Made by a program: the position numbers and the translations under genes
DNA from: a virus
Virus record (IMG/VR): IMGVR_UViG_3300018420_000141
Location: 1 to 21,514 of that record
Reading direction: 5' to 3' (one strand)
Length of the DNA stretch: 21,514 bases
Notes under the pieces: model-generated
The model's database searches: none
Seen by the model: the letters and a program-made list of their open reading frames with translations, nothing else
What the model was told of the DNA's origin: nothing
Shown here: positions 16,497 to 21,018 of the stretch, one piece after another
Numbering within the stretch: the stretch's first letter is position 1
How the letters are laid out: each line of letters begins with the position of its first letter

Positions 16497-17057
16497 ATGG
16501 CACATTCAGGAAGATATAAAGTCGTTAATCGAGATAAGTATGCCGGCGATCCGACTAATATCATATACAGATCTTCTTGGGAAAGAAAAGTCTTTAAATG
16601 GTGTGATCTTAATATAGAGGTCAAGAGTTGGGCTTCTGAAGAAACAGTTATACCTTATTTCTACGATGTTGATAAAAGATATCACAGATATTTTGTAGAT
16701 CTTAAAATCACATGGAGAAATAATAAAACAACACTTATCGAAATTAAACCAGAAAAAGAAACACAGCCGCCTTCAGGTGAAAGACGTACAAAAAGATATA
16801 TCTATGAAGGATTAACTTATGTTAAGAATATGAATAAGTGGAAAGCCGCAAAGGAATATGCAGAGGATCGTGGCTGGACGTTTGAAATATGGACTGAAAA
16901 GAAATTGCAAGAGATGAAACTTCTTGCTAAACCGATGCCTGGTAAAATAAAAAAACCATTAAAAAAGGCAGCACCATATAGAAAAAGGAAGAATACAAAA
17001 CCTCGTGTTAAACCTCCAAAGAATGTGAATGCAGCACCTAAAGAGTGGAAGGATTAA
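16497..17057 (+). CDS. gp4: Head completion protein gp4 (nuclease-like)
   Basis: gp4 (T4 gene 4/50/65) trims or seals packaged DNA and completes the head before tail joining; its fold is TnsA/PD-(D/E)XK nuclease-like. This 186-residue protein has the conserved path: DPTNIIYRSSWERKVFKWCD (18-37), SWASEETVIPYFYDVDKRYH (44-63), RYFVDLKI (64-71), TLIEIKPEKETQPP (79-92), and NKWKAAKEYAEDRGWTFEIW (113-132). Asp68 together with Glu82-x-Lys84 fits the metal-binding nuclease core, with Glu29 as a further candidate. A Lys/Arg/Pro-rich C-terminal tail (about 145-186) extends beyond T4 gp4 (150) and probably contacts DNA. It opens the plus-strand operon. The ribosome site (GGA six bases upstream) is weak. 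Confidence 0.92.
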   Translation: MAHSGRYKVVNRDKYAGDPTNIIYRSSWERKVFKWCDLNIEVKSWASEETVIPYFYDVDKRYHRYFVDLKITWRNNKTTLIEIKPEKETQPPSGERRTKRYIYEGLTYVKNMNKWKAAKEYAEDRGWTFEIWTEKKLQEMKLLAKPMPGKIKKPLKKAAPYRKRKNTKPRVKPPKNVNAAPKEWKD

Positions 17058-18321: not shown

Positions 18322-18567
18322 ATGGCAAAGAAAAGACAAAGAGCCCATCAGGTTTCTAAGGGAGAACGCAGATCCCAAGATCCTAGGTGGAGTAAACAAG
18401 CAAGAAAAGAATGGGTTGGTAGTACAGCACAAATGATTGCAAAGGTAAATGCATGGCACGCCGGCAAAAATGTAATGCTAACTATTGAAAACCCAAATAA
18501 GAATGAGACAAATAAAAAAATGATTCGTGTAAATGCGAATGACGTGTGGAAAAGAAAGAGTGCATAA
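18322..18567 (+). CDS. Small basic protein, function unknown
   Basis: This is an 81-residue, strongly basic protein (MAKKRQRAHQVSKGERRSQD at the start; many Lys, Arg and Trp). It has no recognisable domain, membrane segment or cysteine. A good ribosome site AGGTGAT overlaps the preceding stop, nine bases before the ATG, and the stop overlaps the gp26 start as TAATG, so it is almost certainly translated. The central part (KQARKEWVGSTAQMIAKVNA) could form a helix, and the C-terminal part (KMIRVNANDVW) a strand. The location between the tube initiator and the tail assembly genes suggests a tail assembly role; this is inference only. Confidence 0.75.
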   Translation: MAKKRQRAHQVSKGERRSQDPRWSKQARKEWVGSTAQMIAKVNAWHAGKNVMLTIENPNKNETNKKMIRVNANDVWKRKSA

Positions 18568-19277
18568 TGGCTTTACCAAGATTAAATGATTCCCCAAATT
18601 ATGATTTAATTATACCATCAATGAAAAAAAGTGTGAGCTTTAGACCATTCTTAGTCAAAGAAGAAAAGATTTTATTAATGGCTTTAGAATCTGATGATCA
18701 GAAACAGATTCTGAATACAGTAATTAATACTATTAAAGCTTGTGTAACTGAAGATATCGATACTACAAGATTAACTACATTTGATATCGAATATATGTTT
18801 TTAAAAATACGAGCTAAAAGCGTAGGTGAAACATCGACTATTGTTATGAAATGTAATGAATGTGAATCTAGTAATGATATTACATTAAATATTGATGATG
18901 TAGAAATAGAAGTACCAGACATCTCTAATACTATCGAATTGGATAACCAGATTTCTCTTGAAATGAAATGGCCTACCTTCGATAGTATAGTTAGAGGCGA
19001 TATTCTTTCTTCAGAATCAAGTGTAGATCAAATCTTTGGATTAATTAGATCAAGTATTGATGTTATAAAAACAAATGAAGAAAGATTCTCTGCTAAAGAT
19101 CAGACTGCTCAAGAATTAGATTCCTTTATAGAATCTATGAACAATCAGCAATTTACTAAGGTAAGAGAATACGTAGAAAAAATGCCTAAGCTAACACATG
19201 ATGTAGCTTTCTCTTGTAAAAAATGTAATCATCAAAACAATATTGTAGTAGAAGGAATGCAAAGTTTTTTCTCATAG
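18567..19277 (+). CDS. gp26: Baseplate hub assembly protein gp26
   Basis: gp26 helps assemble the T4 baseplate hub and is probably not part of the finished virion. The 236-residue product starts at ATG 18567, which overlaps the preceding stop (TAATG). A GTG at 18546 would add seven residues but lies inside the upstream gene and was not chosen. The family look is ALPRLNDSPNYDLIIPSMKK (2-21), SFRPFLVKEEKILLMALES (24-42), the helical FDIEYMFLKIRAKSVGE (72-88), and the C-terminal VAFSCKKCNHQNNIVVEGMQ (213-232). Two cysteine pairs, C96-x2-C99 and C217-x2-C220, look like a split zinc ribbon. The last codons (AGT TTT TTC TCA TAG) contain a frameshift-prone heptamer; see the separate entry. T4 gp26 is 208 residues. 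Confidence 0.85.
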   Translation: MALPRLNDSPNYDLIIPSMKKSVSFRPFLVKEEKILLMALESDDQKQILNTVINTIKACVTEDIDTTRLTTFDIEYMFLKIRAKSVGETSTIVMKCNECESSNDITLNIDDVEIEVPDISNTIELDNQISLEMKWPTFDSIVRGDILSSESSVDQIFGLIRSSIDVIKTNEERFSAKDQTAQELDSFIESMNNQQFTKVREYVEKMPKLTHDVAFSCKKCNHQNNIVVEGMQSFFS

Positions 19278-19364
19278 GTCTATCTCATGAGACGCTTGTA
19301 AATTATTATAGGACGAATTTTCAGTTAATGCACCATTATCGCTATTCGTTGACTGAGATAGACC
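19265..19364 (+). promoter_or_regulatory. Predicted -1 programmed frameshift element
   Basis: T TTT TTC lies at 19265-19271, with TTT and TTC as gp26 codons, so both tRNAs can re-pair perfectly after slipping back one base. Five bases follow (TCATA, containing most of the gp26 stop TAG at 19275-19277). Then GGTCTATCTCA (19277-19287) pairs without mismatch with TGAGATAGACC (19354-19364). The 66-base loop has its own nested pairs: ACGAAT (19313-19318) with ATTCGT (19344-19349), and TAATG (19326-19330) with CATTA (19334-19338). Slippery heptamer, short spacer and strong stem are the three parts of a classical -1 frameshift signal, and the -1 frame leads straight into gp51. Confidence 0.7.
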
Positions 19365-19459
19365 ATATGATACCATGGGAAAGAGAAGTATATCTTGATA
19401 TGCTAATCAACCATTTAAAAGAAGAACAAGCAAGGCAGGAACAACAGGGACGGGTATAA
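19271..19459 (+). CDS. gp51: gp51-like hub assembly segment, expressed as a gp26-gp51 frameshift fusion
   Basis: This frame, -1 relative to gp26, is open from 19229 and ends at TAA 19457-19459. After a slip at 19265-19271 it adds 62 residues to gp26 residue 235, giving a 297-residue fusion (18567-19459). The added part reads LIGLSHETLVNYYRTNFQLM, then HHYRYSLTEIDHMIPWEREV, and a charged helix ending QEQQGRV. The YRTNF...HHYRYSL..IDHMIPWERE pattern is the kind found in tail-assembly-chaperone extensions and small gp51-like proteins of marine T4-type phages. No ATG, GTG or TTG occurs before ATG 19328, and starting there would leave 43 residues without the first helix and with no well-placed ribosome site. 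T4 gp51 is much longer (249), so the gp51 name is tentative. The stop overlaps the tape measure start as TAATG. Confidence 0.7.
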   Translation, partial: LIGLSHETLVNYYRTNFQLMHHYRYSLTEIDHMIPWEREVYLDMLINHLKEEQARQEQQGRV

Positions 19460-21018
19460 TGGCAACTCTAGATGACGTAACTCAAAAATTAAAAGAAAAT
19501 AATATAGAAAATCAGTTAGGTCATGAAGGCACTCGACTTGAGCTTACTAAGATCGGTATAAGATTTGATAGATTCTTCAGTATGATGAGCATGCAAAAAT
19601 TGAAGAACTTGGAAACACAAAGAGAAGCCAAAAAAAAGTTGCCGCCAATACCCCAGCCGAGGTCTAGTACCGGCGGTGGTCCAGGCTTAGGACTACTTGG
19701 TGGATTAACGGGTCTTGGTGCAATAGGAACTACTCTAGCAGGTCTTGCAGCATCAATGGCAGGTCTAGATGAAGCAATTAAAGCATTAAGAATAGGACAA
19801 ATTGCAAAGGGTTTAGTTGCCACCGGAAAGGCGATGAACACTAGATATAAAAATTTTCTTGATTCCATTAAAGATTTTGGGAAAGGTATAGCAACCTTTG
19901 GTAGAAATCTTAAAAATCTTTTAATTATTCCAGATGAAACTAAAACATTGTTCAAAAATATACCTGACGGGTTTTTAAAAGGTATATACCAAGTTTTAGG
20001 TCTTGGTGTAGATGGTAAACCGGTTGTTAGTACTAATAATCTTGTTAAAAGTATTTTTGGTGATTCTAAATCAGGAGGCATAGGAGGCAAGATTGCTGAA
20101 GCTTTAAAACCTATGACAGATTTTTTTGATGGTATATCTAGTAAAATAGGTTCTATTACTAAATATTTTCCTACCATTAATTTTAAAGCTTTAAAGGGGA
20201 TATTAGGTGGTGGAGAGGCCGGCGGCGGCATAATTGGATTCTTCCAAAAAATTATATCAGCACTTGATCCTATTTTAGCTCCTATTAAAAAGATAATCGG
20301 ATTTGCACTTAGACCATTTTTCCAAATTATTATTTCTACAATTGATTTCTTTGTAGGATTTTATGAGGGATTTATGGAAGGTAAGAATAAAAAATTATTA
20401 GATAGAATTAAATCGGGAATCGAAGGTGGTATAAAAGGAGTTATTAAAGGGTTTACAGAGGCTATAGATTTATTGTTTATTAAATTGCCGGCATGGTTTG
20501 CTGATAAACTAGGATTTGAAGATGCATCGAAAAAACTAAAAGAGTTTAGCCTAACTGCATTGGTTGATCCTGCATGGGAAGCAGTAAAGAATTTCTTTAA
20601 AGAAGCATTTGCTAATCCTACTAGTAAAATTAGACAAGTTACTGCTAATGTTGGTAGTATGTCTGAGCGACTTACAAAATATATCTTAAGAAACACTTTA
20701 CCTGACCCGAACGTTGAACGGGCATGGTATGATCCTACGCGACTAGCAGTTATGGGTATTCCTGATTCTGTATATGAATATGCTGGATATACTAAAAATG
20801 ATAAAGGGAAATTTGTAATAAAACCAGATACAAATATTAGGTCAGAAAAGTATGAAGGCGTTCAAGGATTAAGATCGGCAGTCCCACCTGGACCAGGCGG
20901 ATCTGCACCAATTATTTTAGCACCATCAACATCGACATCGTCAACAACAAATGGATTTTCTCTTCCAGGAAATGCACAAAGCCCGGTTGATGCATCAGAT
21001 ATGCTATTATCCCACTAA
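19459..21018 (+). CDS. gp29: Tape measure protein (gp29-like)
   Basis: The 519-residue protein lies directly after the assembly-chaperone pair, the standard place for a tape measure protein. It sets tail length as an extended helix inside the growing tube and is released or acts at DNA injection. The N-terminus (1-60) is a charged helix (RLELTKIGIRFDRFFSMMSM), then a Pro-rich break (61-75) and a hydrophobic Gly/Leu/Ala stretch (76-103). About 110-400 is mostly amphipathic or hydrophobic helix, including GFALRPFFQIIISTIDFFVG (281-300). The last 100 residues include a YDPTRLAVMGIPDSVYEYAG patch and a Ser/Thr/Pro-rich tail. T4 gp29 is 590 residues. Similarity to T4 is not obvious by eye, so position and composition carry the call. 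A purine-rich ribosome site (AGGGACGGG) precedes the ATG, which overlaps the upstream stop. Confidence 0.8.
   Translation: MATLDDVTQKLKENNIENQLGHEGTRLELTKIGIRFDRFFSMMSMQKLKNLETQREAKKKLPPIPQPRSSTGGGPGLGLLGGLTGLGAIGTTLAGLAASMAGLDEAIKALRIGQIAKGLVATGKAMNTRYKNFLDSIKDFGKGIATFGRNLKNLLIIPDETKTLFKNIPDGFLKGIYQVLGLGVDGKPVVSTNNLVKSIFGDSKSGGIGGKIAEALKPMTDFFDGISSKIGSITKYFPTINFKALKGILGGGEAGGGIIGFFQKIISALDPILAPIKKIIGFALRPFFQIIISTIDFFVGFYEGFMEGKNKKLLDRIKSGIEGGIKGVIKGFTEAIDLLFIKLPAWFADKLGFEDASKKLKEFSLTALVDPAWEAVKNFFKEAFANPTSKIRQVTANVGSMSERLTKYILRNTLPDPNVERAWYDPTRLAVMGIPDSVYEYAGYTKNDKGKFVIKPDTNIRSEKYEGVQGLRSAVPPGPGGSAPIILAPSTSTSSTTNGFSLPGNAQSPVDASDMLLSH

Follow-up and report, generated by a model that had tools for sequence, protein, structure and literature searches.

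A probable programmed −1 frameshift between gp26 and gp51 in a marine T4-like phage and its relatives

Frameshifted tail assembly chaperones and the gp26–gp51 junction

The −1 frameshift behind gpG and gpGT of phage lambda, and the widespread −1 frameshift of tail assembly chaperone (TAC) genes in general, are attributed to Xu, Hendrix and Duda (2004) in the relevant passages of PMC5009743 and PMC9024508; according to the passage in the former, a 2016 review, the frameshift of lambda G/GT is widely conserved in phages with long tails, 'except T4'. With respect to the T4-like phages, the pertinent passages of two papers cite Vladimirov et al. (2022), one stating that some of these phages carry a short gene along with a fused long gene instead of frameshifting (PMC10885494) and the other that poly-T tracts are slippery sequences in the TAC-N genes of T4-like phages (PMC12846349). 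Thus, so far as these citing passages convey the 2022 work, this kind of frameshift, and probably the T4-like case itself, are already known. The statement in the first-pass annotation that no frameshift between gp26 and gp51 had been described is therefore doubtful, given that the passage in PMC12846349 cites Vladimirov, Gautam and Davidson (2022) for poly-T sites of T4-like phages; a gp26/gp51 frameshift was not found in the titles or abstract openings searched, a search with most subscription journals outside its coverage. What is new here is the quantified conservation of the signal, an SD-like element upstream of it, a clade-limited stem downstream and the locus itself.

The junction analyzed here lies in a stretch of 21,514 nucleotides (hereinafter, the window) from a marine T4-like phage, IMG/VR record IMGVR_UViG_3300018420_000141. 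Its layout resembles that of lambda G/GT in having two frames directly before a probable tape measure gene, a predicted frameshift late in the first frame, and a predicted short and long chaperone (the lambda side of this comparison follows the passage in PMC5009743). The window shares with this kind an in-phase heptamer close to where the first frame ends and a second frame at −1 that has no start of its own in the window. It differs from lambda G/GT in its protein family (PF12322, with CxxC pairs), in the short, 62-codon extension and in the T-rich heptamer; the heptamer of lambda itself is G/A-rich. The locus is also similar to that of the Vandenendeviridae and Andersonviridae, for which the passage on phage Adele in PMC12846349 reports a conserved −1 frameshift with a T-rich motif in a chaperone gene before the tape measure gene, but these are different phage families and their motif is GTTTTT.

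We consider it very likely that gp26 and gp51 are a single TAC gene read in two ways via a −1 slip on T TTT TTC, giving a short TAC-N and a long TAC-NC, with stimulators at the junction and roles like those of the lambda proteins. Direct support comes from the signal itself and how well it is conserved, from the fact that most relatives offer no other start, from the homology between the fusion and T4-type gp51, and from a predicted fold that hints at a TAC; so far as sequence comparison can tell, the programmed −1 frameshift proposed in the first-pass annotation stands as the best explanation.

The slippery site, the −1 frame and their conservation

The gp26-like gene (18567..19277, + strand, as are all features described below) encodes a 236-aa candidate short tail assembly chaperone (TAC-N) that belongs to PF12322 (T4_baseplate, E 8.9e-62 against Pfam) and to phrog_150 (E 8.3e-62 against the PHROG profiles). 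Its last codons, read directly from the window, are AGT TTT TTC TCA TAG, with the stop at 19275-19277; because TTT occupies 19266-19268 and TTC 19269-19271, the heptamer T TTT TTC (19265..19271) is in the X XXY YYZ phase, and its placement ahead of the gp26 stop in the first-pass annotation was right to the base. After the slip, the −1 frame reads LIGLSHETLVNYY... for 62 codons up to the TAA at 19457-19459 (19271..19459 in all), and direct reading shows this frame to be stop-free from 19232 to that TAA. The earlier description of a 62-codon open frame is thus borne out: it ends at 19456 and encodes gp51, matching phrog_634 (baseplate hub assembly catalyst, gp51; E 1.2e-26). With the 235 residues before the slip and the 62 after it, the predicted gp26-gp51 fusion would comprise 297 residues. 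The signal observed at the gp26/gp51 junction is confirmed as real.

Public records present gp51 as a separate gene, annotated at varying places relative to the gp26 stop, which would require (re)initiation of its own after gp26 termination. In the window, the −1 frame contains no ATG, GTG or TTG upstream of 19328, where its first ATG is codon index 21 of the 64 counted from the slip, in keeping with the original observation that no standard start precedes the middle of the frame. This ATG falls past the conserved segment LSHETLVNYY, and in the alignment of the relatives conservation of the peptide begins directly at the slip; moreover, the same domain forms the C-terminus of a longer protein in T4-type phages, all of which argues against reinitiation. 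Whether the relatives have a gp51 start of their own is answered differently in two groups of distinct junctions: in 100 of the 141, the −1 frame is free of ATG, GTG and TTG as far as the tenth codon counted from the slip, and 41 have some such codon near the slip, with an ATG close to the gp26 stop in, for example, L086, L087 and L088. An independent start is rejected for the former, that is, for most relatives, and as a general account of gp51 we find reinitiation highly improbable. The frameshift would explain the usual absence of a gp51 start codon in these genomes and suggests that the gp51 of the public records probably does not exist as a free-standing protein.

Relatives were collected by a scan with the window gp26 as the query, and the best 80 of its 598 confirmed matches, together with S-SRM01, Pelagibacter phage Mosig and the window, made up the first set, with 82 junctions in view (L045 is cut). 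All 82 contain an in-phase T TTT TTN that starts no more than 31 bases ahead of the stop, and gp51 then follows in the −1 frame. Further scans used gp26 of Aeromonas phage 65, Sinorhizobium phage phiM12, Salmonella phage P46FS4 and Stenotrophomonas phage Moby as well as T4 gp51, and annotated named phages were added, for 209 sources in all (208 loci and the window). When a strong gp26 is defined by E <= 1e-25, a limit picked after the survey scores had been seen, 171 sources, including the window, combine a strong gp26 with a complete junction. An in-phase T TTT TTN marks the end of gp26 in 169 of the 171, and gp51 was found in the −1 frame of 167 by an HMM trained on the 75 distinct junctions of the first set (82 sources). 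The two heptamer-bearing sources among the 169 for which the HMM gave no gp51 match are Moby (L085) and its copy L207. Outside the first set, the heptamer is present in 87 of 89 sources and gp51 at −1 in 85 of 89; named phages with the heptamer include Aeromonas 65, Moby, phiM12, phiM9, Vibrio PG216, Pseudomonas Milchi and Rhizobium IG49.

The complete account of the 209 sources consists of 170 with a strong gp26 and the T heptamer (169 complete, one cut), two that are strong and complete without it (Vibrio phage K362, L089, and the locus L208), four strong gp26 loci cut by a contig end, 31 weak-gp26 loci without the heptamer, which are of the Ackermannviridae and T4 types (gp51 at −1 in 14, in the zero frame in eight and not detected in nine), and two with no gp26 match on the + strand (L092 and L204). 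The slippery site is therefore near-universal in the group; the downstream structures differ by lineage. In L208, the gp26 of which is 99% identical to that of Moby, the translation implies one T fewer than in L207, and the frame runs on elsewhere.

Some named phages are represented twice (GenBank and IMG/VR), and the 141 distinct junctions result from the removal of identical ones alone. The gp26 genes of these junctions, 30,050 codons in total, contain T TTT TTN in phase at just 22 further places, so its presence beside the gp26 stop in 169 of 171 strong complete sources goes beyond chance. Phenylalanine in gp26 is encoded by TTT in 72.8% of cases (n=749) and the preceding codon is expected to end in T in ~62%, so that universal T TTT goes far beyond codon usage; with these amino acids and this codon usage, T TTT would be expected in all 75 distinct junctions with a probability of ~1e-27 if relatedness is ignored, the junctions not being independent.

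Runs of A or T are known slippage sites, and the T run at the junction could also cause RNA polymerase to slip, such that some mRNAs would carry an extra base and be read in frame. All 141 distinct heptamer-bearing junctions have runs of six to eight T, the first T always being the start of the heptamer. However, 96 of these runs consist of only six T (22 have seven and 23 eight) and none is longer than eight; the run is always in the tandem −1 codon phase, which transcriptional slippage would not demand, and the SD-like and fold signals described below fit slippage of the ribosome. Transcriptional slippage thus appears very unlikely, and we retain the ribosomal frameshift.

The first-pass annotation cautioned that assembly error had to be excluded, and the site is indeed a homopolymer. 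Four other IMG/VR contigs with four different sample numbers (L003-L006) contain the identical six T and both arms of the stem, and over 215 bases they depart from the window only at 19294, 19341 and 19417, changes that, read from the alignment, are silent, R/H and silent in the −1 frame. The recurrence of six T and stem in four other metagenome contigs with different sample numbers makes assembly error very unlikely, and we reject it. A wider form of this explanation, in which either sequencing or assembly went wrong or a single fused gene recently acquired a frameshift mutation, could draw on the difference at the T run between L208 and its near relative L207, as judged by translation, but, apart from L003-L006, it is opposed by the two-frame arrangement in 167 of the 171 strong complete sources, and its probability is practically negligible.

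Relationship to T4 gp26 and gp51 and the predicted fold

The locus belongs to the T4 gp26/gp51 family, being homologous to gp26 (PF12322) and to gp51. In hhalign comparisons, a global alignment places columns 1-287 of the fusion profile against 1-251 of T4-type gp51 (nine sequences), from one end to the other (probability 99.7, single-comparison E 4.1e-25), and T4-type gp26 (three sequences) aligns both with the short form (probability 99.5, E 3.4e-21) and with the N-terminal portion of the T4-type gp51 profile (probability 98.9 in global mode, E 2.5e-16); phrog_150 matches residues 3-248 of the 249 of T4 gp51. The likeness to T4, in which gp26 is the homolog of the short form and gp51 that of the entire fusion, stands against a difference in gene order, genes 26 and 51 of T4 being separate and divergently oriented. 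Because T4-type gp51 aligns with the whole fusion and the two genes are divergent, T4 possesses separate genes for the short form and the long one. This arrangement, gp26 plus a long gp51, is annotated in T4 (L083), L090 and L092 (in L197-L206, the long gp51 alone was looked at), whereas the window has a single locus with a −1 overlap. Judging from these alignments, the heptamer-bearing relatives probably make the short and long forms from one gene. In one T4-like contig (L205), gp51 is interrupted, its N-terminal part ending at a TAG and the C-terminal match following in another frame 248 bases on.

By analogy with lambda G/GT, gp26 is probably the short tail assembly chaperone and the 297-residue fusion the long form, a reading that provides a direct test of the role of T4 gp51, which should act as a long chaperone. 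An AlphaFold2 model of gp26 (mean pLDDT 88.2) matches 3fgx (Z 8.1), 2ob9 (Z 7.6), 3klu (Z 7.1) and 5ir0 (Z 4.8), followed by the next structure at 2.5, all within residues 1-95, where Z under 8 can reflect a common arrangement. The structure 2ob9 is the HK97 tail assembly chaperone (rmsd 3.2 over 85 residues; Foldseek E 0.78, probability 0.75), and 3fgx and 3klu are presumably chaperone relatives. Comparison of the model with the PDB by Foldseek alone yielded no match at E <= 0.001; in the viral library, the 50 matches listed are mostly phage baseplate-hub and unnamed proteins, the best named one among them being the baseplate hub assembly chaperone of Acidovorax phage ACP17 (E 1.9e-18). There is no TAC-named family for gp26 among the matches listed from Pfam (25 of 129 for the alignment) and NCBIfam. 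Taken as a model, the resemblance of the gp26 fold to TACs is suggestive.

Instead of the heptamer, ATTTTC or GTTTTC is present at the 20 loci of the Ackermannviridae type, namely L091, L094 and the 18 loci L179-L196, which were retrieved with a query from that family. In 13 of the 20, gp51 is detected in the −1 frame, and no ATG is present within nine bases after the gp26 stop in 16 of the 20. The sequence TAATG at the gp26 stop of P46FS4, a member of this family, is a point in favor of reinitiation.

Candidate stimulators, proposed expression and neighboring genes

An SD-like element, GAAGGA (19251..19256), located 8 bases before the slippery site, is a candidate upstream stimulator, and the relatives have a GAGG/GAAGG-like sequence at −15 to −11 (the first T of the heptamer being −1). 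In 86 clusters, the mean anti-SD pairing energy is −6.3 compared to −5.1 expected from synonymous codons (Wilcoxon p 1.4e-7, with relatedness handled by 80% clustering alone); the element is in the best 5% of the synonymous expectation in 24 of the 86 clusters and in the best half in 61. A near-invariant glycine codon at this place implies that the signal is partly protein-driven, a component for which the synonymous control allows.

Downstream, direct reading gives a 5-base spacer (19272..19276) followed by the stem of 11 perfect pairs described in the first-pass annotation, which is present as claimed, with the 5' arm GGTCTATCTCA at 19277..19287 and the 3' arm TGAGATAGACC at 19354..19364. 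The 105 nt at 19272-19376 fold with −30.1 kcal/mol (z −4.57 versus 200 dinucleotide shuffles), and the 99 nt after the spacer have z −4.69 versus usage-sampled synonymous sequences, and only −2.04 versus permutations of the window's own synonymous codons. Across 48 clusters compared to synonymous controls, the post-slip stretch has a mean z of −1.48, with 14 clusters below −2 and none above 2 (300 random versions), against −0.71, −0.60, −0.43 and −0.47, with 8, 3, 7 and 8 clusters below −2, for four control stretches of gp26 (100 random versions). The excess, judged from these means and counts, is modest, the controls being negative too.

The 11-bp stem itself was scored with the 3' arm allowed to shift by up to two codons, and 10-11 of the 11 pairs are found in eight of the 139 scorable distinct junctions, with one more at nine: all 11 in three (the window, L003/L004 and L005/L006) and 10 in five (L008, L009-L011, L013, L036 and L100). 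As for covariation, L036 has one compensated pair, a double change from G-C to C-G at 19278/19363, which is a single compensatory event in a small clade. In the homologous columns of the 48 clusters, 5.5 of 11 pairs are formed compared to 5.9 expected, slightly below the synonymous value (p 0.02). With the stem kept in only eight of 139 junctions and the cluster mean below expectation, we reject it as a family-wide element and regard it as a local candidate stimulator.

In the scheme that we infer, as regards the slippage and how often it occurs, what each stimulator contributes and the function as a chaperone, most ribosomes would stop at the gp26 TAG and release the 236-aa TAC-N, and a minority would shift back by one base at T TTT TTC and produce the 297-aa gp26-gp51 fusion, TAC-NC. 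The SD-like element probably raises the slip rate, as probably does, in this clade, the stem that starts five bases after the heptamer. By analogy with lambda gpG/gpGT, the domain shared by both products would coat the product of the adjacent tape measure gene, and the gp51 extension would bring in the subunits of the tail tube. This reading would extend the chaperone frameshift to numerous phages of the T4 superfamily, marine and otherwise.

As in the lambda G/GT kind, the locus is directly upstream of a probable tape measure gene (19459..21018, 519 aa), which has weak matches to tape measure families (phrog_1535, E 4.4e-9; phrog_167, E 2.1e-7; phrog_1272, E 5.2e-7) and no match in Pfam. The gp51 stop overlaps the ATG of this gene as TAATG (19457-19461), so shifted ribosomes would end at the start of the next gene, and translational coupling of the two is possible. 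Among the relatives, 123 were evaluated, and 61 of them have a frame of at least 110 codons that starts between −12 and +2 relative to the gp51 stop; 18 more are too short to judge.

To a broader evolutionary scenario, taken as a whole, we would give an even chance. Under this scenario, the signal of the T4 superfamily (SD-like element, T TTT TTN and lineage-specific structure) would be ancestral for the long chaperone, the free gp51 annotated in marine and related phages would not be made as such, T4 gp51 would be a frozen frameshift product fixed by gene duplication, the Ackermannviridae would have lost the heptamer by another route, and the overlap between the gp51 stop and the next ATG could tie tape measure synthesis to frameshifting.

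Two other genes of the window are worth recording. Between the tail tube gene and gp26, an 81-aa gene (18322-18567) matches only phrog_23239, a phage family of unknown function (E 4.2e-9), its Pfam match being sub-threshold. Farther upstream, the head-closure protein encoded at 16497-17057 (gp4-like, phrog_218) matches the TnsA-like endonuclease domain PF08722 (E 4.6e-18).
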